From an uncultured Acidimicrobiales bacterium (lineage in GTDB: Bacteria > Actinomycetota > Acidimicrobiia > Acidimicrobiales > SHLQ01), in assembly GCA_937922235.1 (NCBI GenBank), contig CAKZVC010000016.1:1-64000 (forward strand): 64,000 nucleotides of DNA, written 5' to 3'. Both the position numbers and the translations under genes were made by a program. Below the pieces are notes generated by a model. That model ran no database searches. It was given only the letters and a program-made list of their open reading frames with translations, and was not told the DNA's origin. This document shows positions 8,658 to 27,454 of this stretch, piece after piece; position 1 is the stretch's first letter; every line of letters starts with the position of its first letter.

Positions 8658-8784
8658 TGTTGCTCTCCTCTGTGAGGCTCGGTCATCTGACGACTCATGG
8701 GCCCTCAACGTACGACTCGACGAGCGGCACGCACTATCCAAATCTTGCGGTTCCACGCACACACCTGCAGCCGGGCAAAGAAGC

Positions 8785-9711: not shown

Positions 9712-9731
9712 CTGCTGCCGCTGCCGCAGTT
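9710..9731. terminator. Hairpin at the end of the AraC-type gene
   Basis: AACTGC (9710-9715) pairs with GCAGTT (9726-9731) across a ten-base loop and overlaps the stop codon. There is no T-run, so termination is only a possibility. Confidence 0.3.
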
Positions 9732-9757
9732 CGCCCTGCCGAAATGCTGGTCCGAAA

Positions 9758-9767
9758 TGTACGTACA
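9758..9767. promoter_or_regulatory. Palindrome before the rhodanese lipoprotein gene
   Basis: TGTACGTACA is a perfect 10-bp palindrome ending eight bases before the start codon at 9776. Its position would let a bound protein block transcription or translation, but no cognate regulator can be named. Confidence 0.3.
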
Positions 9768-9775
9768 ATAGATAC

Positions 9776-10243
9776 ATGTCTTCACTAACACGCCGAATCG
9801 CTGTAATCCCGTTGCTGTTGACACTTGCTGTCGCTAGCTGTGCGAGCTCAGCTCCCGATACCTCGAACGCCGATAGCGACGAGGTAGTGGAGACCACCGA
9901 GGACAGCAGCGCCAGTGGCATCCGCCTTGTTTCGGCGGAGGATGGAGCGACGATTCAGACGTCCCCACCGCAAGATCTCGTAATCCTCGACGTGCGAACG
10001 CTCGAAGAGTTCTCCGAAGGGCATCTCGAGGGTGCTGCGATGCTCGACTTCTACCGCGATGACTTCGCGGACGAATTGGCGAAACTCGACCGGGACGTTC
10101 CGTACCTGTTGTATTGCCGCTCGGGAAACCGAAGCGGTCAAACGGCCGCGATCATGAGAGAGCTTGGATTTACCGATGTTGCCGACATTGACGGCGGCAT
10201 CGGAGCGTGGAATCAAGCTGGTCTGCCCACCGTCACCGAGTGA
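9776..10243 (+). CDS. Rhodanese-domain lipoprotein
   Basis: This 155-residue protein begins with a lipoprotein signal peptide: basic MSSLTRR, a hydrophobic core and a lipobox ending LAVASC near residue 22. After an acidic linker it carries a single rhodanese domain (about 50-152) with the DVRTLEEFSEGHLEGA motif and the active-site loop CRSGNRSG. The catalytic cysteine is therefore present, which supports sulfur transfer or thiol redox chemistry outside the membrane. It stands alone, with a convergent flavoprotein gene 28 bases downstream. Members often act in sulfur handling, but the substrate is unknown here. Confidence 0.88.
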   Translation: MSSLTRRIAVIPLLLTLAVASCASSAPDTSNADSDEVVETTEDSSASGIRLVSAEDGATIQTSPPQDLVILDVRTLEEFSEGHLEGAAMLDFYRDDFADELAKLDRDVPYLLYCRSGNRSGQTAAIMRELGFTDVADIDGGIGAWNQAGLPTVTE

Positions 10244-10271
10244 CAGCCCGCACTTCTAAGGCATTGAACGA

Positions 10272-12497
10272 TTACTGAGTGGGCTCAGTGCTCAACTGGG
10301 CATCTACGGGTAACGACGTATCGGTGAGGTCGATGTGAACCTCGGAGATGCCGTGGTTCCAATCCGGTTCCGGTGACGCGAGATACTTCTTCCGACCCCG
10401 CTCCCCCAGCTTGTTGAAATGTGGCAATAGCTTCGGAATTAGTGACAGCTGCACTGCGGCAAGCCTGCCGGTGAACCCATCAGATCGCGGGACGTAGTGC
10501 TCAAGCTTGCCTGTGTCCAGCGCTCGCTCATACGCGTCGGCAACGTCATCGACGCTGTTTACATCGGCGAGGAAGTTGAGCGCGCTGCCACCAGTTGCTG
10601 CTTCAACCCGAAGCATCGGAGTATCGACAGCGTTGGGGTAAATGCCGCTGACCTTGACTCCCTGTGACTCGACCTCGGCGTACAAAGAGGCAAGAAAGGC
10701 GCGCAACCCAAACTTGGCGGCCGAATACGCCGACGAGCCCGGCATCGGCACGATGCCACCCATCGATACGGTGGCCAGAACATGTCCGCTCTTGCGAGCA
10801 AGCATGTTGGGAATAGCAGCGTTGATCATGTGCATTGGCGTCCGCAGCATGATGTCGAGGTGACGATCGATCTCGGTGGCGCTCAGATCAGCCACGTTGC
10901 GTGGTGTGATGATTCCGGCATTGCACACGAGTACATCGAGTGACTCAGCCCACTCGGTGGAAATCCGGTCGCAGAGCGCGGCCACCTCATCGGGGTTCGA
11001 GAGATCGCACGCAACTCCAAATGCGTTTGATGCCGTCGCCTTCGCCGCTGCGTTAGCGAGCTCGGCTGTGCGGTCAACGGTAATGACGGTGTGGCCTCGT
11101 ATTGCCAACCGGCGAGCGACCTCTGCTCCAATGCCGGATGCCGCACCCGTTATCAGGGCGAGGCTCACTTCGGAGCCGATGGTGCGCGGAACAGCAGCTG
11201 CGGACTGGATTCCCACCTCATCTTTCACCTCGGCGAGGGTGCTGAGGTAGGTATCGATCTCCACATAGTTGGCGTGGCGTTCAGACTTGACATATGGGCG
11301 GCCCCCAGTGAGATCGGGCGTGTGCTTCTGTTTCTTCGCGGCGAGCCGTCGCTTCACCGAGCTCGCTGTGTCGGACGTAGCGTCGGCGACGATGAGCTCG
11401 GCCATTTTGTCGAAGTTCTCATAGGCAGCAGACGCGAACTCGATGAAGCCGAGCACGGCGAAGGTCGGTGAGTTTCGAGAGAACATGCCGAGATACAGGT
11501 CTGGCCGGCCGCCCTTTTCGTTGAGGACATCGTCCTCGAGGAACGGACAGGCGTGGTGGTAGCCCGTGGCCTGAAGAATGAGGTCGATCTGCTCTCTAGA
11601 TCCGTCGGCGAATACGACGTAGTCGCCATCAAGATGATCGACGTCGCCTTTGGCGATGCAGTCGCCGTGTCCCAGGTGATGCAGGATCTGGGTGTTCATG
11701 ATCGGATGCGAGTCGAGCAGCCCGTGATCGGGCTTTGGTAAGCCGAATCGAGTGAGGTCGCCGTTGATGATGCGGAGCACTCCAGTAAATGCCTTCTGCT
11801 CGATCTTCCACGGCAGCTTCGGGCCTGACTCTGCCCAGACATCCGCAGGCTGGCCCATGATGTGCTTGGGAATGAAGTGGTAGCCACGGCGCACACTCAG
11901 AAACGCCTGGTCCGCGGCAAACGAAGCATCACAGGCAATGTCGACTCCAGAGTTACCGGCGCCCACGACCAAGACCCGCTTGCCCGTCAACTCCGAGGCA
12001 TCGCGGTAGGTAGCGGTATGGCGGATCTCGCCGTTGAACTTCCCCGGCCACTCGATGGTGTTCGGTTCCCACGTCACGCCATTCGCGGCGATCAGATAGC
12101 GCGCGTTCCTTGTGCTGCCGTCAGCGAATGTGAGCGTCCACGTGCTGTCCTCGTTCTGGGCGGCGTTGTCGACCGACATGTTGAACTCGATGTGGCGTTC
12201 GAGGTCGTATTCGTCAGCAAAAGACTTGATGTAGGTCAGCAGCTGCCGGTGATTGGGGTAGTCGGGGTAGTCATCGGGCATCGGAAAGTCGGCGAACCCC
12301 GAGTGCGTGCGCGACGAGATGAAGTGCGCCGTCTCGTACATTGGCGAGCCAGGAGCGTCGATGTCCCAGATCCCGCCAACGCCGGTATGGCGCTCAAAGA
12401 CTGCAAAGGACGCGTCGGTGTTCTGCAAGCGGCGGGCGAGCACCAGGCCAGCCGGGCCGGCGCCGATTACCGCCACATCGAGAATCTGTTCGTTCAC
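10272..12497 (-). CDS. Flavin-containing monooxygenase fused to short-chain dehydrogenase
   Basis: This 741-residue protein has two complete enzymes in one chain. Residues 1 to about 410 form a flavin-dependent monooxygenase with FAD motif VIGAGPAG (9-16), the FMO signature FNGEIRHTATY (FxGxxxHxxxY) and a second Rossmann motif VVGAGNSG. From about 440 a short-chain dehydrogenase follows, with TGAASGIG, CNAG, a catalytic Ser in VSMGG and YSAAK near 587. The pairing could oxidise a ketone or aldehyde and interconvert it with its alcohol, as in Baeyer-Villiger degradation pathways; the substrate is unknown. The reading frame is continuous, with no sign of an error at the junction. It is divergent from the lipoprotein gene at 12623. 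Confidence 0.88.
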   Translation of the reverse strand: MNEQILDVAVIGAGPAGLVLARRLQNTDASFAVFERHTGVGGIWDIDAPGSPMYETAHFISSRTHSGFADFPMPDDYPDYPNHRQLLTYIKSFADEYDLERHIEFNMSVDNAAQNEDSTWTLTFADGSTRNARYLIAANGVTWEPNTIEWPGKFNGEIRHTATYRDASELTGKRVLVVGAGNSGVDIACDASFAADQAFLSVRRGYHFIPKHIMGQPADVWAESGPKLPWKIEQKAFTGVLRIINGDLTRFGLPKPDHGLLDSHPIMNTQILHHLGHGDCIAKGDVDHLDGDYVVFADGSREQIDLILQATGYHHACPFLEDDVLNEKGGRPDLYLGMFSRNSPTFAVLGFIEFASAAYENFDKMAELIVADATSDTASSVKRRLAAKKQKHTPDLTGGRPYVKSERHANYVEIDTYLSTLAEVKDEVGIQSAAAVPRTIGSEVSLALITGAASGIGAEVARRLAIRGHTVITVDRTAELANAAAKATASNAFGVACDLSNPDEVAALCDRISTEWAESLDVLVCNAGIITPRNVADLSATEIDRHLDIMLRTPMHMINAAIPNMLARKSGHVLATVSMGGIVPMPGSSAYSAAKFGLRAFLASLYAEVESQGVKVSGIYPNAVDTPMLRVEAATGGSALNFLADVNSVDDVADAYERALDTGKLEHYVPRSDGFTGRLAAVQLSLIPKLLPHFNKLGERGRKKYLASPEPDWNHGISEVHIDLTDTSLPVDAQLSTEPTQ

Positions 12498-12622
12498 GTA
12501 TCTCTCCCCCGTTCAAACCGCGGGAGCACTACCCCGCTATACGCAGAGTACGACTGAACTTTCGGACTGGCCGTATTGAGTCGTGGCGGCGAGGCAGAGA
12601 CAGAGCTCGTACAGTTGTTTCT

Positions 12623-13480
12623 ATGCTGCGGCGCTTCCGGTGTTTTGTCTTCGTTGTGTTGCTAGCACTCGCTGGGTGCAGCGGCTCGACTGCGCCAGAA
12701 GCCCGCTCTGACCGCGACGCTCCGACTGCTGCGTCTGCCGCAGAAGTTGCCGCCTCCGAACAGGAACCCGGAAGCGTCATCACAAACAACGACACCAACA
12801 CTGGAGTCGATTCCTCAGCGGCGGCCGCTGCACAAGCGTCGTCCCCTCCCCCAGTTGAGGCATTTGACGCATCCGCCACTCAACCGGCAACCGATATCGA
12901 CCCGACCTCCGCGTGGATCTCACGTCGCTCGATGTCGAGCTCCGCGATCGAGCTCGTCTGGTCTGCCCCAGAAGGCAGCGCCGAGTATCAGGTGCATCGA
13001 GTCCCCGGCACATCCGACATGCAACCCGACGATTCCGAGATGTCCGCAGAGAACCTCATACACACGGGCGACTTCAACGGTGTGCATGTAGACGATGCGG
13101 TCACCGAGGGCACTCGCTATTGGTACGGCGTGCGCGGGCTCGACGCCGACGGTGCGGTTGTCTCGACAGGGTGGCATCTTGCCGCAGCAATCACTGACGA
13201 CGAGCCGCCAGCGCAAGTCGAGCTCACGGCAGAACAAACCGACGGGTCTGTGCTGCTGTCCTGGAACCAGCCGGCCGAGAACTACGAGCTCCACAGCTAC
13301 CGAATCCTTCGTGCCGTCGGCAACGAGGAACCCGAAGTCGTTGCATCGACATGGGACATCAACCAAACGTCATTCATCGACGACGATCCACCTGACGAGC
13401 TCGTGACCTACTCGGTCATCGCATTCGACTTCCACTGGAACGGCTCGGAGCCAAGCGAAGTGACGCTCGACCGTTCGTAG
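12623..13480 (+). CDS. Lipoprotein with two fibronectin type III-like domains
   Basis: About 285 residues. A short signal peptide (MLRRFRCFVFVVLLALAGC) ends in a clear lipobox, then a roughly 75-residue Ala/Ser/Thr-rich linker. Two beta-sandwich repeats follow, each with Trp and Tyr spacing typical of fibronectin III (ELVWSAPEGSAEYQVHRV, then LLSWNQPAENYELHSYRILR). It is probably anchored in the membrane and exposed outside, for adhesion or protein contact. The open frame starts further upstream, but ATG 12623 gives the export signal. The gene ends six bases before the convergent APH-fold gene. Confidence 0.75.
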   Translation: MLRRFRCFVFVVLLALAGCSGSTAPEARSDRDAPTAASAAEVAASEQEPGSVITNNDTNTGVDSSAAAAAQASSPPPVEAFDASATQPATDIDPTSAWISRRSMSSSAIELVWSAPEGSAEYQVHRVPGTSDMQPDDSEMSAENLIHTGDFNGVHVDDAVTEGTRYWYGVRGLDADGAVVSTGWHLAAAITDDEPPAQVELTAEQTDGSVLLSWNQPAENYELHSYRILRAVGNEEPEVVASTWDINQTSFIDDDPPDELVTYSVIAFDFHWNGSEPSEVTLDRS

Positions 13481-13486
13481 CCCCGC

Positions 13487-14254
13487 TCACACCAGGAGCT
13501 CGCTCCACCGGTCGAGGTTGCTCTCGACGAATCGGGCGCCTTGTTCCCATCTGTTCGCATGCCCCTCGTCGACTAAGCGTTGATAGTTGCTGTCTCCAGC
13601 CTCAGCCTGTGCACGCAGGAACGCAGCGTGCCCGCCAGTGCGCTCGACAACCGTTTCGAGAAGCAATCGACGGTCGAGTGGTTCGACGTTTGCGCCTTCG
13701 CAGAAGGCCAAGATCCGGGTGATGAGCTCCTCGTCGTCGTGAGGCGAGTCTGGCCAAAGCCCGGCAAAGCTGTGAAGCGCCCATGCAAGGTCCCATAGCC
13801 GACGTCCTGGCGCGGCGAGATCCCAATCGATGAATACCCAGCCGTCAGGCCCGGCGATCAAGTTCCACGGAGCAAGATCGTTGTGGGCCACCACCTCTGT
13901 CGAGCCGCTCGGATCGCTACCTTCGGCACGCCATTCGGCGGTCGGTGGAGTGTCAAAGTCGGCTTGCGCAATGTGATAGTCCGCTATCAGGCGCCCGACT
14001 CGGAACATCGACCGGGGTGCGTCGAGCAAATGCAGATTGTTGGGATGCACCGGTTCGCCCGGGATGAAGGACAACACCTCTCTGCCACTCGCATCAAGCC
14101 CATGCGGCACAGGGGCCGGATACGACTGTTCCTGCAGGTGTGTCAGCAGATCGTGAACCGCCGGCGTCCACGGTCCCGCCTCGCGGCGCACAGTCTGACC
14201 GACTCGCAGCACCTCGGCGTTGAGGTTTCCGCCGGCAAGTCGCTCTTCATCCAT
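13487..14254 (-). CDS. APH-fold phosphotransferase
   Basis: This 255-residue protein belongs to the aminoglycoside/choline kinase fold. It has VVAHNDLAPWNLI as the catalytic loop (HNDL in place of the usual HGDL) and VFIDWDLAAPGRRLWDLAWAL as the metal-binding segment. The His-to-Asn spacing and the DWD motif are intact, so activity is plausible. The short N-terminal lobe makes it smaller than classical resistance enzymes. The substrate is unknown and the context does not help: it converges with a fibronectin-like lipoprotein gene and is followed upstream by a palindromic repeat element. Confidence 0.82.
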   Translation of the reverse strand: MDEERLAGGNLNAEVLRVGQTVRREAGPWTPAVHDLLTHLQEQSYPAPVPHGLDASGREVLSFIPGEPVHPNNLHLLDAPRSMFRVGRLIADYHIAQADFDTPPTAEWRAEGSDPSGSTEVVAHNDLAPWNLIAGPDGWVFIDWDLAAPGRRLWDLAWALHSFAGLWPDSPHDDEELITRILAFCEGANVEPLDRRLLLETVVERTGGHAAFLRAQAEAGDSNYQRLVDEGHANRWEQGARFVESNLDRWSELLV

Positions 14255-14451
14255 CTCGACCGATCATATGAGACCGCCGACAGCTTCGGCGCCGTCGATG
14301 AACCGACGCCGCAACGCTCAAATACGACGGCCTGCAAGATCTTTAAGAAACCTCGCGACTTTTCGCAACCGTCAGCCGTCTCTCTATCCGTAAGCGCTGC
14401 GCAGGTATCCCGCCACCTGCTCAGCGCTTGCCCATTTTTCCGGCGCTGGAG

Positions 14452-14498
14452 ATTTGTGCAGGAAAAGGTACCTGTGGGGTATCAAATCCTTCACAAAT
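14452..14498. repeat. Dispersed 47-bp palindromic element, imperfect copy
   Basis: The right arm (14476-14498) matches 21 of 23 bases of the right arm of the copy at 58794-58840, including ATCAAATCCTTCACAAAT. The left arm has diverged, so this copy is an imperfect palindrome. It begins inside the stop codon of the SnoaL-like gene (14491-14493) and extends downstream of it. Confidence 0.8.
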
Positions 14499-14961
14499 CT
14501 CTGCTTTTTGCTTGGAACGTGTCCAAGTTCTGACGAGTGGTCCTCTGGACCTTTGCTTTGAGCATGGGAGTCCATCCCAAGAACTTGCCGGGTGCACCCA
14601 GGGCTTGCGACGACCACTTCCAGAAGTCGAAGACGTCTCGGTGGTCGACGATCTTCCCATTCTCGACCTTCATGGTTGCGGTCACGTCGTTGCGCACGGC
14701 GCGACCGGTGGCGGTAAAGGTGTACTCGGCAATCCAGTTCGCAATGACGAGCGAGTCGGTAGCACTCACGATTGTGTGGGTGATGGCGAGATCGGTGTCG
14801 CTCGAGCACAACATGCGCCACATATCTCCGGCATCTGCACCTCGAAGCTCACCGAACGCGGGGTCCTCGAAGACGATGTCGTCGCTGTAGCACGCCGCCA
14901 TGCCCTCGCCATCCCGGTCAGCAAGAGCGTTGTAGAAGGTCGTTGCGAGTTCAGCGGTCAT
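14491..14961 (-). CDS. SnoaL/NTF2-like protein
   Basis: This 156-residue protein has the cone-shaped SnoaL/NTF2 fold pattern: an N-terminal helix (TTFYNALADRDGEGMAACYSDDIVFEDPAF), then strands around TIVSATDSLVIANWIAEYTF and ATMKVENGKIVDHRDVFDFWKW. Members include polyketide cyclases, limonene-epoxide-hydrolase-like enzymes and many ligand-binding proteins. Active-site identity cannot be judged by eye, so no reaction is assigned. The stop codon lies within a dispersed palindromic repeat. No biosynthetic neighbours are present. Confidence 0.8.
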   Translation of the reverse strand: MTAELATTFYNALADRDGEGMAACYSDDIVFEDPAFGELRGADAGDMWRMLCSSDTDLAITHTIVSATDSLVIANWIAEYTFTATGRAVRNDVTATMKVENGKIVDHRDVFDFWKWSSQALGAPGKFLGWTPMLKAKVQRTTRQNLDTFQAKSRDL

Positions 14962-15026
14962 GACCGGACTCTAGGTCAGGAGAACACGCAATCGTCCTCG
15001 GCGGAGGTGCCCACTACACTTTTTCT

Positions 15027-15479
15027 GTGACGTTGCGCTCCGAACCAGAAGGCTGCTGCCCTGCAGGAGAGGGAGAAACCGAGCACTGTCCAATCTGCGG
15101 CGATGTGGGAGTGGTCGTGGGTATCGATGTCGTACGCCCGCATCGCGCTGAGGCGAACGATGGCGACTGGCACTACTGCGGGAAGGCCGACTGCGACGTC
15201 GTCTACTACCTCGGAGCGGAACTGATCGATCACACGGCGGTCGTAACCCAGGTCGGAACCAAGGCTTCTGAGCAGCCAACTCCGGTGTGCTTCTGCTTTG
15301 CTTACACGACCGAGGCACTGGCCGAGGACCTGTGTGTCAATCGAGGTGTGAGCCAGATCAAGGCACAGATCAAGAACGCTGTCGCGGCGAGCAGCTGTTC
15401 CTGCATGCACCTGAACCCACGAGGCGAGTGTTGCCTGCCTGACGTGCACCGAGCGCTTAGCGAGCTGGAGAGTAACTAA
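15027..15479 (+). CDS. CopZ-like zinc/iron-sulfur metallochaperone domain protein
   Basis: This 150-residue, cysteine-rich protein starts at GTG 15027. It has an N-terminal pair CCP and CPICG, a YCGKADCDVVYY strand, then CFCF and a later CSCMHLNPRGECC cluster. This order matches the N-terminal zinc plus [2Fe-2S] (BFD-like) domain described for Archaeoglobus CopZ and related putative metallochaperones. The C-terminal heavy-metal-binding domain of CopZ is absent, and no copper ATPase gene is nearby. Its stop overlaps that of the convergent acetyltransferase gene by four bases. A role in metal or electron transfer is inferred. Confidence 0.75.
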   Translation: MTLRSEPEGCCPAGEGETEHCPICGDVGVVVGIDVVRPHRAEANDGDWHYCGKADCDVVYYLGAELIDHTAVVTQVGTKASEQPTPVCFCFAYTTEALAEDLCVNRGVSQIKAQIKNAVAASSCSCMHLNPRGECCLPDVHRALSELESN

Positions 15480-16753: not shown

Positions 16754-16860
16754 CCGGAGTTTCCGGAACGTAAGCCATAGAGCCCAAAATCACGGATCAG
16801 CTATACATCTTTTTGCAGGTGCTCCCGATACAGCGTTACCGCCCCTTGTTGGAGAAGCAC

Positions 16861-18504
16861 ATGCGTCGTCAGTTCACCCGCTCCCGACAGTTCATGTTGT
16901 GTGTCGGACTGCTCACCAGCCTCGCCGCGTCGACACTCGCAGTCGGTGCCGCGGCAGGCTCAACGACAGTCACGTGTGATGGTCTCGCGGCGACCATCGT
17001 TGGCACGCCTGGCCACGACACGCTCCGGGGCACGGCCGGCCCCGATGTCATTGCGGGCCTGCAAGGCAACGACATCATCAGAGGTCTTGGTGGTAACGAC
17101 ATCATCTGCGCTGGCAAGGGCAACGACCAGGTCTACGGCGGCAAGGGCTTCGACATCATCTACGGAGCGCAAGGCAACGACGCCCTGTACGCAGCAAACG
17201 GGTCGGAGGCAGCCGAGCAAGTCGACGTCCGCGGCGCTCGCATGTTCGGCGGAGCCGGTGACGACACCATCTACGGCTCCAACAAGTGGGATCGCATGCA
17301 GGGCGGTCCTGGCAAGGACAGCCTCTACGGATTCGACGGACGAGACTGGATGCGAGGTGGGCCCGACCCCGACCGCATCGAGGGCGGATCGAACATTGAC
17401 GACGTGCACGGCGGCAACGGCAACGACACGTTCATCATTGCGGGCAACGACAAGGTTCGTGGAGGCGCAGGCAAGAGCGACACCTGCATCATCGCCTCAG
17501 GCTCGGTGCCAAGCCCGATCGCGAGCTGCGAGATCGGCGGACCAAAGCCAATCCCGCCGGTTCCAGCAAGCTCGTCATGGCCCGAGGTTCAGACCCCGAA
17601 CATCACCGGCTCTGACTACATCGTCGAGCTCGGTCGCTGGGACATTCCGAACAACGGCACTCAGCCCAAGAAGACCAAAGAGAATCTTCAGAAGGCCCTC
17701 GACTGGGCATCGGAGAACAACGTCGGCCAGTTCAAGTTGCCTGCGGGTACGTATCTCATTGGCGACGTCGGCAACGACATCTACTACGCAGGGGTCACCC
17801 TTCACGACAACATGGCCCTCGTGCTCGATGACAATGCTGAGATCCGCCTCAACACCAACGACAAATGGAACTCGTGCGCCATCGAGAACAACGAGATCCA
17901 CCACACCAACGGCACTTCACCGCAGTTCGGCATCGACATCGAAAGCTTGTCGTTCAACAGCGAGAACATCATCATTCGGAAGAACAACTTCTACAACAAC
18001 CGTGGGGGCGACATCGTCAACACCGACGGCAAGAACGTGCTCGTCGAGCACAACACCATGCGCCAAGGCGGAGGCAACCGCTACATCGACGGTCCGCTCG
18101 TTTCTTGGCCGGCCGGCGACTGGACCGTGCGTGGCAACACGATCACGATGGTGAACGGCTCGGTCAATGGCAAGTCTGGCTTCATTGGCTATGCCGGAAC
18201 GCGGCACCGCGGTGGCAACCCTCCCACGAGCTTCTTCGTGAACAACACCTGCAACGGCTGCGGCATGTACGTCTACAACAGCGCCAACATGGTGGTGAAG
18301 GGCAACACGTTCAACGACGGCTACATCGTGATGCAGTACTTCGAGAACGCGATGATCCTCAACAACACCGTCACGCACGGCAACAAGTGCTGGGCCTATC
18401 GCTTCCTGCAGGTCAGCGGTCAAGCCAGCGGCAACACGTACAACGGTGAAGCCTTCGACATCCCGTTGTCGAGCACCCCGTGGGACGGCTGTTGGGTGCG
18501 ATAG
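16861..18504 (+). CDS. Secreted protein: calcium-binding repeats joined to a parallel beta-helix
   Basis: About 547 residues. A signal peptide (MRRQFTRSRQF plus a hydrophobic core, cleavage near residues 30-37) precedes about 190 residues of GGxGxD-type repeats (GGNGND, GGAGDD, GGAGKSD). After a proline linker near residue 238 the rest is a right-handed beta-helix of the pectate-lyase type, rich in Asn ladders (NNEIHHTNG, RKNNFYNNRGG, RGNTITMVNG, NNTVTHGN). It may bind or cleave a surface or algal polysaccharide, which is inference. The ATG follows GGAGAAG at good spacing. The repeat module is clearly related to the one at 6093-7985. Confidence 0.82.
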   Translation: MRRQFTRSRQFMLCVGLLTSLAASTLAVGAAAGSTTVTCDGLAATIVGTPGHDTLRGTAGPDVIAGLQGNDIIRGLGGNDIICAGKGNDQVYGGKGFDIIYGAQGNDALYAANGSEAAEQVDVRGARMFGGAGDDTIYGSNKWDRMQGGPGKDSLYGFDGRDWMRGGPDPDRIEGGSNIDDVHGGNGNDTFIIAGNDKVRGGAGKSDTCIIASGSVPSPIASCEIGGPKPIPPVPASSSWPEVQTPNITGSDYIVELGRWDIPNNGTQPKKTKENLQKALDWASENNVGQFKLPAGTYLIGDVGNDIYYAGVTLHDNMALVLDDNAEIRLNTNDKWNSCAIENNEIHHTNGTSPQFGIDIESLSFNSENIIIRKNNFYNNRGGDIVNTDGKNVLVEHNTMRQGGGNRYIDGPLVSWPAGDWTVRGNTITMVNGSVNGKSGFIGYAGTRHRGGNPPTSFFVNNTCNGCGMYVYNSANMVVKGNTFNDGYIVMQYFENAMILNNTVTHGNKCWAYRFLQVSGQASGNTYNGEAFDIPLSSTPWDGCWVR

Positions 18505-18607
18505 CGCTTGCAATAACGTGTGCTCAGCCGTGTTTCGGTAAAGCCGTCAACACTTCAGCCGACTGTCCTAATGAGAAGAGACAGCATTCGCACATGAAAG
18601 GGTAACG

Positions 18608-19303
18608 ATGGAGACATTCCTAACGAACGTCGTGTCCTTCCCCGCGGTCATCTTCACCGTGACGTCATGGCTGTTTCTTGGCTTCTGGGTGGCGACAACG
18701 CTTCTCGGTTCAGGCTTCGATGCCTTTGGCGATGTTGGCGACTTCGAGATCGACGTCGATTCGAGCACCGAGCTCTCGACCGATACCGACCTCGGCGGCG
18801 ACATCGACACCGAGGTCGACGCCTCGTCATCGGGCCTCGTCCGTAGCGCCATGGAGTTTCTCGGTATCTCGGGAATGCCTTTGCTGCTCGCTCTCAACCT
18901 GCTCTCGATCTTTGCCTGGGCCATCAGCATGATTGCGCTCATCTTTATGGATGGCTTGGAAGGCACCGGACGTTTCGGCGCTGGCGTTGCGGTGTTCTTC
19001 GGCGCCCTTTGGCTTGCTGGGCAACTCACCGGACGCATCGGAGGCAGGCTCGAACCGGTCTTCATCCCCACCCGCGCACTTCGCCGTGGCGATCTTGTCG
19101 GTTCGATCTGCACCGTGACCACCCTGAAGGTCACCGATAGTTTCGGTCAGGCCGAGGTGCGCACGGCCGAAGGCGATTCGCTCACGGTTCAAGTTCGTTG
19201 CGACGATGCGAACGAGCTCACTGCGGGTTCACGCACAGTGATATTCGACGTTGACCAAGACTCTGAAGTTTTCCTGGTCTCTGCCGACATGGAACCCATA
19301 TAA
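18608..19303 (+). CDS. YqiJ-like OB-fold membrane protein
   Basis: This 231-residue protein has an N-terminal hydrophobic segment, an acidic stretch rich in Asp and Ser (about 40-75), two further membrane segments (about 88-115 and 120-145) and a C-terminal soluble domain (RGDLVGSICTVTTLKVTDSFGQAEVRTAEG) resembling an NfeD/YqiJ OB-fold. In enterobacteria YqiJ is encoded next to the flotillin YqiK, and the same order is seen here. It is the first gene of a three-gene operon, 41 bases before the flotillin start. ATG 18608 follows AAAGGG. It probably sits in the membrane with the flotillin. Confidence 0.8.
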   Translation: METFLTNVVSFPAVIFTVTSWLFLGFWVATTLLGSGFDAFGDVGDFEIDVDSSTELSTDTDLGGDIDTEVDASSSGLVRSAMEFLGISGMPLLLALNLLSIFAWAISMIALIFMDGLEGTGRFGAGVAVFFGALWLAGQLTGRIGGRLEPVFIPTRALRRGDLVGSICTVTTLKVTDSFGQAEVRTAEGDSLTVQVRCDDANELTAGSRTVIFDVDQDSEVFLVSADMEPI

Positions 19304-19344
19304 CGGCAACGTGTCGCAGATGGCACGGCTGGAAGGTGGCTCCC

Positions 19345-21246
19345 GTGCTTCTCAACATTCTCATCATCGTCGGCATTGTGATCGGCGTTCTCGCCGCAGT
19401 CGCAGTACTGATGGCGCTTGTCTACAGCTCGCTGTACAAGAAGGTCCCGCAAGGTAAGGCACTGGTCATCAGCACCACCAAGGCGGTCGTCGTTAGCTTC
19501 ACCGGCCGCCTTGTCGTACCGATCATTCACAAGGCCGAGATCATGGACACGTCGGTCAAGACGATCGAGATCGACCGTCGAGCAACCGAAGGCCTCATCT
19601 GTCGCGACAACATTCGTGCCGATATCAAGGTGAACTTCTTTGTTCGAGTGAACAAGGCCGAAGAAGACGTCATCAAGGTCGCCCAGTCGATCGGTGTCGA
19701 ACGAGCAAGCAGCCAGGAGACCCTTGAAGAGCTCTTTGTCGCGAAATTCTCCGAAGCCCTCAAGACCGTTGGTAAGGGTCTCGACTTCGAAGACCTCTAC
19801 ACCGAACGTCGTCGCTTCCGTGATGAGATCATCGAAGTCATCGGAACCGACCTCAACGGTTACGTACTCGAAGACGCAGCGATCGACTACCTCGAGCAAA
19901 CGCCACTGATCAACCTCGACGAGAACAACATTCTCGACGCCCAGGGCATTCGCAAGATCACCGAGCTCACCGCCGTGCAGCACGTCGCTACCAACGTTGC
20001 TGCCCGTGAAGAAGAGAAGCAGATCAAGGCCAAGGACGTCGAGACCCGGGAAGCCGTGCTCGAGCTTATGCGCCAGCAGGCCGACGCTGAAGCTCGTCAG
20101 TCCCGTGAGATCGCCACCGTCAAGGCGCGTGAACAGGCCGAAACCGTCAAGGTCCAGAACGAAGAGCGCCTCCGCGCCGAACGCGCTCGCCTTGCAACCG
20201 ACGAAGAGGTTGCGATTACCCAAGAGAACCTCGATCGCGAAGTCGCCGTGGCTGAGAAGAACAAGGAACGCATCATTGCGGTCGAAGAAGAGCGTGTGCG
20301 TAAGGCACGCGAGCTCGAACTGGTTGCCGCTCAGGTCGAAGTGACTTCGGCGTCGAAGTCGATCGAACAAGAGAAGACCGAGATCGCCAAGATCCAACGC
20401 GATCGTGTCGCCGTCGAAAGGACCGTGGCCGAAGAAGAAGAGGCCATTGCCACCTTGCGGGTTGTTGAAGAGGCAAACCGTCAGCGTGACGCAGTAGTCA
20501 TCGAAGCCGAGGCTGAGGCCCAGGGCGAATTCGTGAAGGACATCAAGAAGGCTGAAGCAGCCGAAACCGCAGCGGCCCACCTCGCAGCAGAACGTGTCAC
20601 TGTGGCCAAGGCTGACCTCGAAGCCAGCGACCTCGACGCCCGGGCGCAGATGCGTCTGGCGGAAGGCGCCCAGGCACAAGCTGCCGCATCTGGCCTTGCC
20701 CTCGCACAGGTTCGTGAAGCTGACGCTGTGGCTATCGAAAAGGTCGGCCTGGCCGAAGCTCGAGTCAAGGAAGCCGACGCGGGCGCCACTGCCAAGGCTG
20801 GCGAAGCTGAAGCAGCAGCTGTCGAAGCGCTCCTCCGTGGCGAGGCCGCAGGTCTCACCGAGAAGGCCGCAGCAATGCGCGAGCTCGAAGGCGTTGGCCA
20901 AGAGTTCGAAGAGTTCGTCCGCAAGCTCGACGTCGAGAAGGAAATCAACCTCGCCGAGATCGAAGCTGGCATCGGCATTGCCGAAGCCCAGGCCAACGTC
21001 ATCAGCGCAGGCCTCGAAAGCGCCAACATCGACATCGTCGGTGGCTCCGACATGTTCGTCGACAAGCTCATCACTGCGGTAGCTGCCGGCAAGACCGTCG
21101 ACGGGTTCGTCAAACACTCCGGCGAAAGCCGAAAGAAGCTCGTCGACGAAGTTGGCTCCGTGCTCGAGAACTTCAACTCCGAAGATCTTCGAGACATGTC
21201 TGCTGCAGCTGCCCTGAAGGCACTCGCCGACAAGCTTTCGGACTAA
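19345..21246 (+). CDS. Flotillin-family protein (YqiK-like)
   Basis: About 633 residues. An N-terminal membrane anchor (about 1-30) is followed by an SPFH/Band-7 domain (about 35-210). A very long charged coiled coil rich in Ala, Glu, Lys and Arg follows (about 215-520), then a conserved flotillin C-terminus (EINLAEIEAGIGIAEAQANVI, then GGSDMFVDKLITAVAAG). Flotillins form oligomeric scaffolds in membrane microdomains. GTG 19345 is preferred because GGAAGG lies eight bases upstream; GTG 19336 sits too close to it. The gene is followed after six bases by a giant ATPase gene. A 700-codon open frame on the opposite strand is a shadow of its skewed codon use. Confidence 0.9.
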   Translation: MLLNILIIVGIVIGVLAAVAVLMALVYSSLYKKVPQGKALVISTTKAVVVSFTGRLVVPIIHKAEIMDTSVKTIEIDRRATEGLICRDNIRADIKVNFFVRVNKAEEDVIKVAQSIGVERASSQETLEELFVAKFSEALKTVGKGLDFEDLYTERRRFRDEIIEVIGTDLNGYVLEDAAIDYLEQTPLINLDENNILDAQGIRKITELTAVQHVATNVAAREEEKQIKAKDVETREAVLELMRQQADAEARQSREIATVKAREQAETVKVQNEERLRAERARLATDEEVAITQENLDREVAVAEKNKERIIAVEEERVRKARELELVAAQVEVTSASKSIEQEKTEIAKIQRDRVAVERTVAEEEEAIATLRVVEEANRQRDAVVIEAEAEAQGEFVKDIKKAEAAETAAAHLAAERVTVAKADLEASDLDARAQMRLAEGAQAQAAASGLALAQVREADAVAIEKVGLAEARVKEADAGATAKAGEAEAAAVEALLRGEAAGLTEKAAAMRELEGVGQEFEEFVRKLDVEKEINLAEIEAGIGIAEAQANVISAGLESANIDIVGGSDMFVDKLITAVAAGKTVDGFVKHSGESRKKLVDEVGSVLENFNSEDLRDMSAAAALKALADKLSD

Positions 21247-21252
21247 CCAACC

Positions 21253-24200
21253 ATGGCTGACCCCAGCTCTGGGGACACCCCAGAGGTCCACGATGAGGCC
21301 GGAGCCGGCACGTACGAGCTGCTCCGCGCCCGTCTACTCGGTCATGCACGCACCCTGGCCGAGCGCAGCGACGCCCTCAACGCTAAGCGAATCGAATCAT
21401 TCGGTTCGAGCAAGTTCGAAGTTGCAGGGGTCGAACGCATTCGAACGACGAACAACACCGTTCCCCGAGACATTGTCTCGGCCGGCCAAGACCTGCTCTT
21501 TGGCTACAACGTGTTCATTGGCCTGAAGACAGAGACCACCGTCGACGACGTCTTCAGCCTGCATCATTATCGCTCCGAAGATGGGGAGCTCCGGCTCGAC
21601 ACGGCGCCCGACAACGCCGACGACAACTGGCTTCACGACAAGAACTTCCAACGCGACTTCAGCGAGCTCTACACCTATTACAAGGACGCTCGACTTCTTC
21701 AGATCCAGCGCCGGGAAGGCCGACTGCTTGCTGCGTTTCAGACGGGCAAGAGCCTTGAAGACATCCGCGTGTTCCGGTGGTCGGTCAACCCCGATGGCGA
21801 GGTGTCCTACCTCGACAACCGAGGCGAACGCGACTACGTGCAAGCCTCACAGTTCGACTTCGAGTGGTCGCCGGTCACCCGTGAACACCACGTTGACGGC
21901 CGCTCCCCCTATGTCAACATTGCTGACACGGTCTTCGTCGACCCGACCGGTGGCGACCTTACTATTCGTCTTGAGGACAACACGCCCGAGGGCCAAACCG
22001 TTCTGACCGAAACGGTCGAAGACGCCGACCAAGCCCTGGCTGACTCGACGATGGAATATGCCGTACTCGGCGACCTCGTCGTGCTATCCGTTCAGCCATA
22101 CCGAGAAGACACCGTCCGGTCGTACGTTGTCAATACGCTCACCCGAACCGCTACCCGTGACGACTCGATCCTAACGAGCTGCCTCCAGCTCCCTGAAGAC
22201 CACGGCATCATCACCCCAGCTGGCTTTGTTCTTCGTACCGGCGAAGCCAAGCGCTTCGACGTCGACACCGAGGGCATGCGGTTCGAAGCCATTCGCCGCT
22301 CCCCCAACGGCGAGGACGTGTTATACGTCTTTCACGAACGCACCTCGGGACTTTCGATCCTGCTCGCCTACAACCTCATTCGCCGTGAAGCCGCCCAGCC
22401 CATTGCCGCACACGGCTACTCGATCTTCGACGACGGCAGCCTCATCGTCTTCCGTGAAGACGCCGAACCCACTCGGGTTCACCCGATGCAGATCTGGAAC
22501 ACGCCATTCGTTTCTGACGAGTTCCATGCGGCTCAGCCGGTTGGCGACTCGGTCCTGCATCGCCTCGGCAACGCGGACCTCGTGCGTGGCGTATCCGACT
22601 CGCTCAACATCGCCCGCCAAACCGAAGAAGCCGAACCGTCATCAGCGGTCTACGCAGATCTCCTGGCATCTGCTTCACGAGTACTGAATGGTTACTTCTG
22701 GCTGCACGAGCCCGAGGTTGGGAACCTTGCTGAACCGCTCGAAGAGATCGCTGCTACTGCAACCCTGATCATCGACGAGTTCGAGAAGGTGCAGACCCTT
22801 CAGGCATCGGCAGGCGCCACCTTGGCCGAAGCTCAGGCCGAGGTTGACCAGCTCATCCTCGAGCTCACCGAAACTCCCCCGACGACGGCTGGCGAACACG
22901 TCGATGCGTTGCGCCTGCTTCGCCAGAAGCGCGGCCACCTGATCACGTTGCAAGACGTCCGCTACATCGACATCGAGGCAATCGAAGCCCTCGAAGGAAG
23001 CGTCATCGAGCAATTCGATAGCGCGTCGACGGCGGCTGCCACGTTCTTTTCTGGTGAGGAGGCGTTTGCCGACTTCCACACTGAGCTCGCCTCAGTCGAA
23101 TCGGCCATTACGTCATCGGTTCGAACCGCCGAGCTCGATGAACCTCGTGAGAAACTTGAGGCCCTCACCGACGGCCTCGACGTCCTAAGCCAAGTCGTGA
23201 GTGGTCTCGAGATCGACGACCCAACGGTCCGTACGGAAATCCTCGGACGTCTCTCCGACGTCATGGCTGGCCTGAACCGATGCCGGGCGATTAGCGAGAA
23301 CCAGCGCAAGTCGCTTGTAACCTCTGAAGGTGCTGCGGCGTTCAGCGTCGAAATGACGCTCTTCGCCCAGGCGGTCTCGGGAGAGTTGGCCCGAGCCACA
23401 ACCCCGGCACTGGCCGACGAAGCCCTGGGCCGCCTCCTCCTCCAGCTCGAAGAACTCGAATCACGCTTTGCCGAGTTCGACGACGAACTCATCGAAATCG
23501 GCCACCGCCGCGACGAGGTCTACGAGAGCCTGTCGTCTCGCAAGCAGTCGCTGCTCGACGACCGTCAGCGCAATTCCCAGCGGCTCATCGACGCTGCCGA
23601 CCGAATCCTCGGTGGCATCGGTCGCCGAATCGAACGCTTCGAGAGCACCGATGAGCTCAACGCCTGGTTCGTTTCGGACCCGATGGTCGCCAAAGTCCGT
23701 TCGCTCGCCGAAGACCTTCGTGAGATTGACCAAGCCGTCTCGGCCGACGAGCTCCTGCGTCGTCTCGATACCGCCAGGGAAGACGCTGGACGTTCGCTGC
23801 GTGATCGGGCCGACATCTTCGAAGAAGGCGGCAGTGTCATCCGCCTTGGCAACCATCGATTCTCGGTCGATACCGAGCCACTCGAGCTCACCGTTGGGGT
23901 CGTCGATGGTGAGCTCAATGCCGTCCTCACCGGCACCGACTTCCGCCAACCGCTCGACGACGAGCTCCTCGCAGGGTCGGACCGGTTCTGGACGCAACAC
24001 CTCGCCTCGGAGAACGACGAAGTCGGGCGGGCCGCATACCTTGCCGGCACGATCCTTCTCGATGCCCTCAGCGGTGAAGGCGAGCACACTCTCGATGACC
24101 TCGGAGCACTTCGTAATTCCGCAGACGGTCTCGCGACGCTCACTCGCACATCGGCCGAGCAACGCGTCGATGAGGGGTACGAACGTGGCGTCCACGATCA

Positions 24201-26139
24201 CGACGCTGCCCTCCTGCTCGACGCGCTTCTCGAACCCATCGCAACCGCGGGTCTACTGCGATATGACCCTCGAGTTCGTTCCGACGCCATCATCTTCTGG
24301 ATCGACGGGCTCAACGACGCACAACGAGACACCTGGCAAGCACGCTGTCGAAGCCTCGGACGTTTGCGCCATGCGTTCGACCGGTCGCCGGCAATCGCTG
24401 AAGCAATCGACGAGCTCGCAACCGCACTCGATGCGTACGGCACTGCGTCAGACCCGGCAACAAGCGCCGAGTACCTGTTTGAGGAGCTCGCCGAAGAACT
24501 CTTCGGTTTCGACACCAGTGCCGACGCCATGTCGCTCGCTGATGCCTTCCGGTTGCACCAAACCGAAGGCGACCGCGCCGCCCAGGTAATCGCATCGCTC
24601 CCGACCTTCACCGATCGCCTCGAACTCGCGGAAGCGTGGCTCCGCGCCTTCACAGCAGCACAAAGCCCGGAACTACTTCCTGTCGTTCCCGAAGCCGTCG
24701 TGATGATCGCAGGCGACATGGTCACGCGTGTTCCACAAGCGTCAACCCTCGACATCGACGTCTCGGGCCTCCTCAGCACCCATCGCCAAATCGACAACGG
24801 AACGCTTCACGCACGTGCTGACGAGCTTCTCACAACCATCCGTCGATACCGGCGTGACGAACGGCCTGCATTCGAGGCGTACCAAGCAGCCCGGTCAACT
24901 GCTCTGGCGACGACCCGAGATCAGCTTCGTCTCGATGAGTTCCAGCCCAAGGTCATGAGCGCCTTCGTGCGCAACCAACTGATTGACCAGAGTTACCTGC
25001 CGATGATCGGCGACAACTTCGCGAAGCAGCTCGGCAGCCTCGATGGTGGCCGGACCGACCAGATGGGTCTCCTGCTGCTCATCTCTCCCCCTGGCTACGG
25101 CAAAACAACGCTCATGGAATACGTGGCGAACCGCCTTGGCATGGTGTTCGTGAAGGTGAACGGCCCAGCCCTTGGCACGGGCGTGACCTCGCTCGACCCG
25201 TCCGAAGCGCCCGACGCGACCGCAGCCCAAGAGGTCGACAAGATCAACTTCGCACTCGAGATGGGCTCGAACGTGTTGCTCTACCTCGACGACATCCAGC
25301 ACACGAATCCCGAGCTCCTCCAGAAGTTCATCTCGATGACCGACGCCCAGCGCCGCATGGAAGGCGTCTGGCAAGGGCGGACCCGCACCTATGACCTTCG
25401 GGGCAAACGTTTCGCTGTCGTTATGGCAGGCAACCCGTACACCGAGTCAGGTGAGCGGTTTGCGATTCCTGACATGCTGGCGAACCGTGCGGACACGTAC
25501 AACCTTGGCGATGTCCTTTCGGGACAGGACGATCTCTTTGCGCTCTCCTACATCGAGAACGCGATTGCGTCGAACCCGGTGCTTAAGCCAATGACCACTC
25601 GGGACCTCGCCGATGTCCCTGCGCTTGTCGAGATGGCTCGACGCGGCAAGGGCACTCCACAAGAACTCAAGCACCCCTACAGCACCCAAGAACTTGGCGA
25701 CATGGCCTCCACGATGGAACGCCTACTCGTGGTGCAGAAGGTGCTGCTCTCGGTCAACCAGCAGTACATCGCGTCGGCATCGATGTCCGACGACAACCGC
25801 ACCGAGCCACCATTCCAGTTGCAGGGTTCGTACCGAAATATGGCTCGCCTGGCAGAGAAGGTTCTGCCGGTGATGAACCGAGAAGAGATCGAGAATCTGA
25901 TCGACGACCACTATCGAGGCGAAGCGCAGACGCTAACCACGGGCACTGAGTCGAACCTGCTGAAGCTCGCCGAGTTACGCGGAACGCTAACTACCGAAGA
26001 CGCAGACCGCTGGAACGAGATCAAAGAGACATTCGCCCGCGTGCAACGACGCGGCGGAAGCGATAGCGACCCGATGTTTCTCGTGGCCGAGTCGCTCAAC
26101 GACATCGGTCAGACCCTCAAGGGACGTGCTGCCAGCTAG
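21253..26139 (+). CDS. Giant DUF3686/AAA+ ATPase (annotated elsewhere as 'DNA repair ATPase')
   Basis: This 1628-residue protein is a single intact frame. The N-terminal part (about 35-500, with FGSSKFEVAGVERIRT and GYNVFIGLKTETTVDDVF) resembles DUF3686. The middle (about 490-900) is predicted to be helical and coiled-coil. An AAA+ module of the MoxR/dynein-like branch lies near the C-terminus: Walker A PPGYGKTT around 1278, Walker B VLLYLDDI around 1341 and a sensor-like VVMAGNP around 1390. Family members carry the automatic name DNA repair ATPase without clear biochemical proof. Its tight link to a flotillin and a YqiJ-like protein points instead to a membrane-associated remodelling complex, which is inference. 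Confidence 0.85.
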   Translation: MADPSSGDTPEVHDEAGAGTYELLRARLLGHARTLAERSDALNAKRIESFGSSKFEVAGVERIRTTNNTVPRDIVSAGQDLLFGYNVFIGLKTETTVDDVFSLHHYRSEDGELRLDTAPDNADDNWLHDKNFQRDFSELYTYYKDARLLQIQRREGRLLAAFQTGKSLEDIRVFRWSVNPDGEVSYLDNRGERDYVQASQFDFEWSPVTREHHVDGRSPYVNIADTVFVDPTGGDLTIRLEDNTPEGQTVLTETVEDADQALADSTMEYAVLGDLVVLSVQPYREDTVRSYVVNTLTRTATRDDSILTSCLQLPEDHGIITPAGFVLRTGEAKRFDVDTEGMRFEAIRRSPNGEDVLYVFHERTSGLSILLAYNLIRREAAQPIAAHGYSIFDDGSLIVFREDAEPTRVHPMQIWNTPFVSDEFHAAQPVGDSVLHRLGNADLVRGVSDSLNIARQTEEAEPSSAVYADLLASASRVLNGYFWLHEPEVGNLAEPLEEIAATATLIIDEFEKVQTLQASAGATLAEAQAEVDQLILELTETPPTTAGEHVDALRLLRQKRGHLITLQDVRYIDIEAIEALEGSVIEQFDSASTAAATFFSGEEAFADFHTELASVESAITSSVRTAELDEPREKLEALTDGLDVLSQVVSGLEIDDPTVRTEILGRLSDVMAGLNRCRAISENQRKSLVTSEGAAAFSVEMTLFAQAVSGELARATTPALADEALGRLLLQLEELESRFAEFDDELIEIGHRRDEVYESLSSRKQSLLDDRQRNSQRLIDAADRILGGIGRRIERFESTDELNAWFVSDPMVAKVRSLAEDLREIDQAVSADELLRRLDTAREDAGRSLRDRADIFEEGGSVIRLGNHRFSVDTEPLELTVGVVDGELNAVLTGTDFRQPLDDELLAGSDRFWTQHLASENDEVGRAAYLAGTILLDALSGEGEHTLDDLGALRNSADGLATLTRTSAEQRVDEGYERGVHDHDAALLLDALLEPIATAGLLRYDPRVRSDAIIFWIDGLNDAQRDTWQARCRSLGRLRHAFDRSPAIAEAIDELATALDAYGTASDPATSAEYLFEELAEELFGFDTSADAMSLADAFRLHQTEGDRAAQVIASLPTFTDRLELAEAWLRAFTAAQSPELLPVVPEAVVMIAGDMVTRVPQASTLDIDVSGLLSTHRQIDNGTLHARADELLTTIRRYRRDERPAFEAYQAARSTALATTRDQLRLDEFQPKVMSAFVRNQLIDQSYLPMIGDNFAKQLGSLDGGRTDQMGLLLLISPPGYGKTTLMEYVANRLGMVFVKVNGPALGTGVTSLDPSEAPDATAAQEVDKINFALEMGSNVLLYLDDIQHTNPELLQKFISMTDAQRRMEGVWQGRTRTYDLRGKRFAVVMAGNPYTESGERFAIPDMLANRADTYNLGDVLSGQDDLFALSYIENAIASNPVLKPMTTRDLADVPALVEMARRGKGTPQELKHPYSTQELGDMASTMERLLVVQKVLLSVNQQYIASASMSDDNRTEPPFQLQGSYRNMARLAEKVLPVMNREEIENLIDDHYRGEAQTLTTGTESNLLKLAELRGTLTTEDADRWNEIKETFARVQRRGGSDSDPMFLVAESLNDIGQTLKGRAAS

Positions 26140-26167
26140 CAACGATCGGGGCCCGCTAAAGATCTCT

Positions 26168-26202
26168 GCCCCGTTTCGGACCTGACAGGTCTGGAAATGG
26201 GC
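26168..26202. terminator. Long imperfect hairpin after the flotillin/ATPase operon
   Basis: GCCC (26168-26171) and GGGC (26199-26202) bracket an imperfect stem with a perfect core GACCTGACAGGTC (26179-26191). A second small hairpin, GGCACaaatGTGCC, overlaps at 26200-26213. This lies 28 bases after the ATPase stop and may end the operon transcript. No T-run follows. Confidence 0.4.
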
Positions 26203-26359
26203 ACAAATGTGCCGCAGAGTGAAGATCGTCGAGCAAGGACGCATCCGGCAGCATGTTGCTTCTACCTGACACAGATCACTCCGCGCTGCGGATGCGACCT
26301 TTCTCGAACGTGATAGTTGAGTATCGGCACCACTTTTGGGAATCTGAAGCGCAAATATT

Positions 26360-26382
26360 GCCCTGCATTGAAATATCAGGGC
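26360..26382 (-). terminator. Hairpin after the threonine aldolase gene
   Basis: GCCCTG (26360-26365) pairs with CAGGGC (26377-26382) across 11 bases. It lies seven bases after the stop of the leftward gene, and an A/T-rich stretch (AATATTTG on the coding strand) follows, so it could be a weak terminator. Confidence 0.45.
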
Positions 26383-26389
26383 GTTTCCG

Positions 26390-27454
26390 TCACCGATGCG
26401 CGGCAACGCACTCGGCGAAGGCGTGAATATCGTCACCTGTCGTCGCAAACGACGTCACCATCCGCGCCAACTGCTCGTCTTCGGCGAGTTCACCGCTCGG
26501 CGGCATTGCGTTGGGATACCAGTCGTACATCGACACCCCGGCGTCGAGCAACGACGCGAAGAGCGCCTTGTCGAACACCACGAACGTCTCGTTCGATTGG
26601 CAGTCCCACGCGAGACGAACACCGTCGAGCTCACCAATCGTCGAGCGGAGGGTGTTGGCCATCTCGTTTGCGTTCCGCCCAAGTTCTAGCCAGTGATCGC
26701 TGTCGAGCCACGCCGAGAACTGCGCCCCGTAGAGTCGGGCTTTCGACGTGAGATGCCCAGTTCGTTTCATGCGGTATTCGAAGTCCTTCGCAAGCGTCGA
26801 ATCGAAGAAGACGATGGCCTCGGCGGCCACCGCTCCGTTCTTGCTCGCACCCAGGCACAGCACATCGACGCCGGCCTTCCAGGTGAGCTCGCTCGGGTGG
26901 ACGTCGAGGGCAGCAACTGCGTTCGCAAACCGGGCCCCGTCCATGTGCACGCTCAAGCCGTGCGACTTCGCCGTTTCATTCAACGCCCGAATCTCATCGA
27001 CCGAATACACCTGGCCGCACTCGTTGGCCTGCGTTAGCGAGAAGGCCTGCGCTTTGACGTTGTGCGGCGCATCGCTCGGAAGACGAGTGATCATGTCGTC
27101 GAGCTGAGCTGGTGTAAGCCGAACCTCGCGCTCGGGAACCGGCAGCACGGCCGCACCGCCGGTGAACAGCGCTGGCCCTGTCGACTCGTCGAGCAAGATG
27201 TGTGCCTGGTGATGGCAAACCACGCCTCCCCAAGGGTCGACCATTGCCGAGAGCGCAAGCATGTTCGCTGCGGTCCCGCTCGACACGAAAAACACCTCAG
27301 CATCGGTGTCCAATGCCTCGCAGACAGCAGCAGCGCCAGCCGCGGTGATGCTGTCCGCACCGTAAGCGTCGTGTGCACTCCCCCGGTAGGCCTCGGTGAT
27401 GGAGGCAAGCACCTTGTCTGATGCGCCGGCTTGATTGTCACTTCCGAAGATCAC
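26390..27454 (-). CDS. Threonine aldolase-family PLP enzyme
   Basis: This 354-residue protein has the fold-type I PLP layout of low-specificity L-threonine aldolases: FGSDNQAGASDKVLASI at the start, FFVSSGTAANMLAL for phosphate binding, HMDGARFANAVAAL with the cofactor-contacting Asp, and LCLGASKNGA containing the lysine that would bind PLP. It cleaves threonine or related beta-hydroxy amino acids to glycine and an aldehyde. The start is GTG 27454. It is last in a leftward run after patatin, ureohydrolase and HTH-regulator genes, with a 55-base gap to the patatin gene. Beta-eliminating lyases share the fold and are the main alternative. Confidence 0.9.
   Translation of the reverse strand: MIFGSDNQAGASDKVLASITEAYRGSAHDAYGADSITAAGAAAVCEALDTDAEVFFVSSGTAANMLALSAMVDPWGGVVCHHQAHILLDESTGPALFTGGAAVLPVPEREVRLTPAQLDDMITRLPSDAPHNVKAQAFSLTQANECGQVYSVDEIRALNETAKSHGLSVHMDGARFANAVAALDVHPSELTWKAGVDVLCLGASKNGAVAAEAIVFFDSTLAKDFEYRMKRTGHLTSKARLYGAQFSAWLDSDHWLELGRNANEMANTLRSTIGELDGVRLAWDCQSNETFVVFDKALFASLLDAGVSMYDWYPNAMPPSGELAEDEQLARMVTSFATTGDDIHAFAECVAAHR

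Follow-up and report, generated by a model that had tools for sequence, protein, structure and literature searches.

A flotillin-linked DUF3686 ATPase operon in an uncultured Acidimicrobiales bacterium: a probable short form of a PspA-linked envelope-stress system

What does a giant ATPase, from a family labelled as DNA repair proteins, do directly behind a flotillin and a small membrane protein? The question is raised by a locus in a 64,000 nucleotide stretch of DNA (positions 1 to 64,000 of contig CAKZVC010000016.1, assembly GCA_937922235.1; hereafter the window) from an uncultured Acidimicrobiales bacterium. We regard it as practically certain that the locus is a chromosomal copy of a YqiJ-flotillin-DUF3686 operon, and this operon is best explained, taken as a whole, as the abbreviated version of an envelope-stress system linked to PspA, a reading to which we assign a probability of about 0.6. 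The locus comprises the following features.

18608..19303, + strand: YqiJ-like membrane protein of 231 amino acids, with three hydrophobic segments (from residues 8, 81 and 100) and, at the C-terminus, a region that aligns with YqiJ_OB relatives
19336..21246, + strand: flotillin-type SPFH protein of 636 amino acids, with an N-terminal hydrophobic segment, an SPFH region and a long Ala/Glu-rich stretch
21253..26139, + strand: giant AAA+ ATPase of 1628 amino acids, without a hydrophobic segment over the threshold used
21355..22698, + strand: DUF3686 region of the ATPase (residues 35-482), for which the model is mainly a beta-propeller
23059..23313, + strand: DUF7902 region of the ATPase (residues 603-687), within a helical stretch
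24790..26136, + strand: C-terminal AAA+ module of the ATPase (residues 1180-1628), with a predicted MoxR-like fold
near 25084-25110 and near 25279-25299, + strand: Walker A and Walker B of the ATPase

A preliminary description of this DNA had placed the three genes in one operon at 18608..26139, and the open reading frames (ORFs) do lie there on one strand in the order yqiJ, flotillin, ATPase. The 6 base gap which it gave between flotillin and ATPase holds, while its 41 bases between yqiJ and flotillin apply only to a start at the GTG at 19345, which has GGAAGG a few bases 5′ of it and yields a flotillin of 633 amino acids; from the first GTG (19336), the mechanical ORF start, the gap is 32 bases. 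No sigma-70-like promoter was found in 17500-27000 (1.5 were expected in shuffles), a result that neither proves nor excludes a single transcript.

Alone, neither the flotillin nor the YqiJ-like protein matched a Pfam model at E 0.1, and both were identified through their relatives. Flotillin relatives match Band_7 (2 of 7 in one set, 3 of 20 in another) and the flotillin profile aligns with that of E. coli YqiK (hhalign 99.9 %, E 1.7e-33), which together assign an SPFH (Band_7) domain to the window protein and bear out its earlier naming as a flotillin. Among solved structures searched by sequence, one flotillin profile gave a single weak match (an apolipoprotein, E 0.56) and the other none. 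The small protein had been described as a membrane OB-fold protein; its three hydrophobic segments agree with the membrane part, while the predicted OB-fold is supported but thinly, YqiJ_OB being found in 1 of 25 relatives and YqiJ_N in 2 of 25, with a profile match to E. coli YqiJ at hhalign 88 % (E 2.8e-6).

Evidence for this reading comes from the constancy of the partnership. We compared 170 loci, comprising 10 from the Actinomycetota sample (nine and the window), the best 80 of 533 confirmed relatives in genome contigs, 7 from Pseudomonadota, 31 from Planctomycetota and 42 from Myxococcota; in two pairs among them the ATPases are identical, so that each pair is probably a single contig. 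Of the 170 loci, 162 have a co-directional flotillin gene upstream, at a distance of 1.5 kb or less in 158. Five of the eight remaining loci (L036, L057, L102, L176 and L181) have only 30 to 398 bases before the contig end, and the other three, all from Myxococcota (L171, L172 and L174), are true separations with 5.6 to 8.8 kb visible and the flotillin elsewhere in the genome; in both genomes checked of these three, yqiJ adjoins the separated flotillin. YqiJ was found at 153 loci. Ten of the 17 without it are cut off by the contig end after 30 bases to 2.3 kb, three are the separations just mentioned, and four (L019, L064, L088 and L091) are missing YqiJ despite more than 9 kb of visible sequence.

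Presence and absence were tested both ways in two phyla, Actinomycetota and Myxococcota, using the same flotillin profile and the same samples. Strong flotillin matches occur in exactly the same 8 of 296 Actinomycetota genomes as the ATPase, the window's own genome included (Fisher p 2.8e-14 without it), with weak partial matches in two further genomes (E 2e-7 and 9.6e-4). At E 1e-80, 92 of the 193 Myxococcota genomes have both proteins, 99 have neither, one has the ATPase only and one the flotillin only; the ATPase-only genome (G1119, locus L176) has 49 bases before the contig end, and in the flotillin-only genome (G985) the flotillin abuts the end of its contig, which is 48,229 bases long. 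The ATPase and the flotillin clade of the window are almost never apart in these phyla. The preliminary description had named frequent occurrence of the ATPase without flotillin as evidence that would tell against its proposal, and the counts point the other way.

The ATPase itself is recognized by Pfam at 601 bits for DUF3686 (cut-off 25), and because of this homology the ORF is not a chance one; DUF7902, AAA and AAA_5 (29.6 bits against a cut-off of 22) also exceed their cut-offs. Across 168 aligned rows (166 different sequences) the Walker A residues G/G/K/T, D1346-D1347 of Walker B, N1394, R1412 and R1528 are invariant, confirming the intact Walker motifs earlier ascribed to this 1628-residue protein. 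Most AAA+ proteins have Asp-Glu at the end of Walker B; here it terminates in Asp-Asp in all 168 sequences. In the model, an N-terminal beta-propeller and a helical coiled coil are fused to one MoxR-like AAA+ module with complete motifs. VIA-align comparison of this module returned only NorQ or CbbQ in the top ten rows and scored MoxR members at 16.6 against 13.0 and 12.8 for the classical AAA chains PAN and NVL; no RuvB chain is among the 50 rows listed, which does not thereby exclude RuvB. Foldseek placed RuvB first and NorQ fourth. The module is likely, not certainly, of the MoxR class, since we followed VIA-align where Foldseek ranks RuvB first. Compared with NorQ and CbbQ the window ATPase is much larger, with its propeller and coiled coil. 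MoxR ATPases usually have a VWA partner; none belongs to the trio, although VWA genes were not searched for systematically.

DUF3686 is present in 8 of 296 Actinomycetota, 8 of 398 Pseudomonadota, 32 of 246 Planctomycetota and 93 of 193 Myxococcota genomes, and in 2 of 247 genomes of the window's own class, each sample containing its centre, a known carrier (the window's own genome twice, and G296, G297 and G298). In the tree of the 168 ATPase rows, for which the output warns of long branches and uneven composition, nine labels need 12 changes with a minimum of 8, three of the labels being single rows, unsure or the window's own; we read this as suggesting inheritance mostly within phyla with a few transfers. 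A recent import of the window copy from another phylum is unsupported, its nearest ATPases being those of Acidimicrobiales metagenome-assembled genomes. A distant blastn search for the ATPase in E. coli with a 3.9 kb piece of a Gilliamella gene gave no match, in a mode that may miss divergent genes. In the two-copy genomes G128 and G182 the ATPase or flotillin of L013, L016 and L017 is split across two ORFs, reflecting decay or sequencing error.

Wider operons elsewhere carry PspA, a CesT/Tir-type chaperone, phospholipase D and a rhomboid protease. With a first PspA profile, derived from Pseudomonadota only, PspA and DUF2170 were found upstream in 18 of the best 80 loci and PspA in 2 of the 7 Pseudomonadota loci; this profile missed a PspA-like gene at L202 that Pfam detected, and a broader one added L114 and L128 from the Planctomycetota sample. 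PspA is about 3 kb away in L114, and in L128 (4601-6073 and 14224-14937) PspA-like ORFs flank the trio, a pair preceding it and a third immediately following the ATPase. Phospholipase D is encoded downstream in 10 of the best 80 loci and 1 of the 7 Pseudomonadota loci. A rhomboid gene directly follows the ATPase on the same strand, at 0-45 bases, in L043, L051, L052, L056, L058, L060, L061 and L105; in L070 it lies elsewhere and on the opposite strand.

Matches were also found in 12 plasmid records, six of 169-562 kb and six of chromosome size (1.7-11.9 Mb). Flotillin is upstream of the ATPase in all six of the smaller records, and when one Proteus record is added flotillin is present in 7 of 7 and YqiJ in 6 of 7. 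PspA accompanies the trio on two plasmids. The order on pQBR103, which adds polyamine-type genes, is YjfI, PspA, rhomboid, DUF2491, DUF350, DUF1190, glutathionylspermidine synthase, YqiJ, SPFH, ATPase, a ten-gene run at 2016-15220 of the analysed record (L194); a gene annotated as phospholipase D lies about 8.6 kb further downstream. A Hymenobacter plasmid has the order Tir chaperone, PspA, DUF1449, flotillin, ATPase. The unit in the window is taken as three genes because upstream of it lies a gene for a protein in which a right-handed beta-helix follows RTX calcium-binding repeats, and the next gene downstream that Pfam recognizes (26390-27454) runs on the opposite strand. The upstream gene (16813-18504, + strand) ends 103 bases before yqiJ; its product looks secreted and shows no sign of belonging to the conserved unit.

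The preliminary description held that the function of the trio is not established, which is right, although the trio itself is already in print. Ravi et al. (2024, PMC11237479) describe long and abbreviated YqiJ/flotillin/AAA+ operons and propose that they assemble membrane complexes under stress. Their abbreviated operon has the same three genes, which the window carries together on one strand, an AAA+ protein with beta-propeller and coiled coil, and PspA possibly encoded elsewhere. They report the ATPase in some cases, whereas we find it near one-to-one with the window's flotillin clade; two gene groups listed apart there form one run on pQBR103, and the main text, as available, contains neither 'rhomboid' nor 'plasmid' and does not place the AAA+ protein in the MoxR class. 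Another close system is the bac operon of P. aeruginosa, co-transcribed according to reverse transcription PCR, in which BacB to BacF rise 6.1 to 13.5-fold in a bacA mutant (PMC10948618). In bacABCDEF, BacA is a DUF2170 protein and BacB is PspA-like; behind them come an NfeD-type protein, the flotillin PaFlo3 and two more co-transcribed genes. In P. composti, a species with PaFlo3, locus L052 reads DUF2170-PspA-YqiJ-flotillin-ATPase, and from gene order we infer that BacE is the DUF3686 ATPase. Unlike bacABCDEF the window is without DUF2170, PspA and the downstream operon gene. Comparison of the bac-operon papers identifies PaFlo3 as PA3729, a protein that co-precipitates with Arc3 but, at 1.30 and 1.28-fold the control, is hardly enriched (PMC8926400). 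E. coli yqiJ-yqiK corresponds to the first two genes of the trio in both protein type and order; in K-12, unlike the window, no ATPase gene follows it. The open-access literature returned nothing on DUF3686 and nothing joining flotillin with 'DNA repair ATPase', with PspA/AAA ATPase/NfeD or with MoxR/AAA+, and the ATPase itself is under test nowhere in the available text of Ravi et al. or of the bac-operon and phage-induction literature.

SPFH assemblies are known to be paired with AAA+ machines, as in prohibitin-AAA protease complexes. HflK/C associates in the same manner with the AAA protease FtsH (PMC12048511), a pairing like that in the window, although the window AAA+ protein is MoxR-like, is without a hydrophobic segment over the threshold used and has no protease domain by Pfam. 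In the window's system, flotillin and YqiJ would assemble at the inner membrane into an SPFH-NfeD-type oligomer that serves as a platform; the ATPase, with no predicted membrane segment, may dock on it via its propeller or coiled coil, and the AAA+ ring would spend ATP on remodelling membrane-bound substrates, or on pulling at them, when the envelope is under stress, with PspA, encoded elsewhere in the window's genome, probably working in trans. An envelope-stress role for the operon is quite likely, and for a putative direct flotillin-ATPase complex we see an even chance. Only tentatively do we suggest that the pair constitutes a new type of dedicated SPFH-AAA+ machine, in which a flotillin cage houses or docks a MoxR-like, non-proteolytic giant motor, much as HflK/C works with FtsH, for ATP-driven remodelling of membrane proteins or lipids under envelope stress; the two would form a near-obligate pair, which occurs in Actinomycetota, Pseudomonadota, Myxococcota and Planctomycetota as well as on plasmids of Deinococcus and Hymenobacter.

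Several observations weigh against this account. PspA lies near the trio in at least 22 of the 170 loci (20 Pseudomonadota and two from the Planctomycetota sample), a lower bound because the profile may miss distant PspA, and the window operon is without it, PspA being encoded on another contig (contig 43) of the same genome, where at L204 (4393-5913, - strand) it is followed by a second, weakly PspA-like gene. Co-transcription of ATPase and flotillin is not compulsory, because three Myxococcota genomes keep them apart. Five more Myxococcota genomes have a flotillin match without ATPase at E 1e-25, sixteen in all at E 0.001, and more distant flotillins are under-counted because the profile was built from ATPase-linked members. 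Two of these genomes (L202 and L203) have a more distant yqiJ-flotillin pair, preceded in L202 by the PspA-like gene; YqiJ-flotillin pairs of other clades thus exist without the ATPase, but the clade to which the window's flotillin belongs was not seen without it. For 77 loci the ATPase and flotillin trees are only partly congruent: distances correlate at 0.84, the nearest neighbour is shared at 40 of the 77 loci, and the flotillin tree contradicts 11 of the 52 supported ATPase splits, a comparison with no other gene as null. Deletion of PaFlo3 in P. aeruginosa reduced biofilm by only ~20 % and left pyocyanin, alkaline protease, elastase and swimming as in the wild type (PMC13086221); the bac operon papers report a biofilm effect for upstream genes and little for the flotillin.

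Could the motor act mainly on PspA? The ATPase would then be Vps4-like, disassembling or remodelling polymers of this ESCRT-III relative with flotillin merely as membrane anchor, and the PspA genes near the trio at those loci and on two plasmids, the PspA of the window's own genome, the B. subtilis SPFH protein required to place PspA at the membrane (PMC8581546) and the ESCRT-like analogues suggested by Ravi et al. are all consistent with it. The constant partner is flotillin, however, not PspA, and the AAA+ module scores nearest to MoxR members rather than to the classical AAA chains listed, so that we consider this unlikely. The DNA repair function given in the Pfam description and RefSeq product names draws on the label and on RuvB, which heads the Foldseek list, supplies 6 of the 7 PDB sequence matches of the ATPase (E 0.0009 to 0.0022) and matches weakly by Pfam (E 0.00086). 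The sequence matches span only ~40 residues around the P-loop, RuvB models stay below their curated cut-offs (19.5 against 27 bits in Pfam, 18.6 against 299 for NCBIfam ruvB), the second aligner favours NorQ and CbbQ, Pfam finds no DNA-binding domain in the ATPase and its partners are membrane proteins. We reject this function as very improbable, in line with the doubt that the preliminary description had already cast on the label.

That description also entertained stress response, envelope repair and phage defence by a membrane machine, of which the first two are best supported. An anti-phage system sensing or repairing phage damage to the membrane would accord with the patchy distribution and plasmid carriage of the operon, and PA3728-PA3732, called phage shock proteins, are up in all phage-infected P. 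aeruginosa samples (PMC12041424), a rise that reflects a stress response without proving defence. PADLOC gave no strong match for the three proteins, the best being E 0.002 over ~30 ATPase residues around the P-loop, and neither a set of 50,697 phage records nor 64 pattern matches in viral contigs yielded a relative. The proposed check for nearby defence islands turned up membrane-stress genes as the recurrent neighbours identified. PADLOC on 44 other ORFs of the window matched five families, of which three (LeoBC, LeoA and mad8) fall, on re-scanning ten ORFs, on one ORF at 60342-61637, 34 kb away from the trio, and CARF_2OG and HTH_VI were not traced to an ORF; a defence island around the trio in the window is discarded, and phage defence is improbable. 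The ORF at 60342-61637 (- strand) has partial matches to LeoBC (E 2.8e-17) and LeoA (E 9.1e-16) over ~120 residues.

An abbreviated envelope-stress system with links to PspA remains our preferred explanation. As a discovery the gene set is ordinary; its value lies in a partnership that is tightly defined, still unexplained and accessible to mechanistic tests. To our knowledge bacterial flotillins have no clear energy-using partner, and the near one-to-one link to the ATPase gives this flotillin one that is directly testable. If the explanation is true, proteins of the DUF3686 family labelled 'DNA repair ATPase' would move to membrane biology, and the pairing of SPFH proteins with AAA+ machines would be a recurring design, not one peculiar to FtsH.

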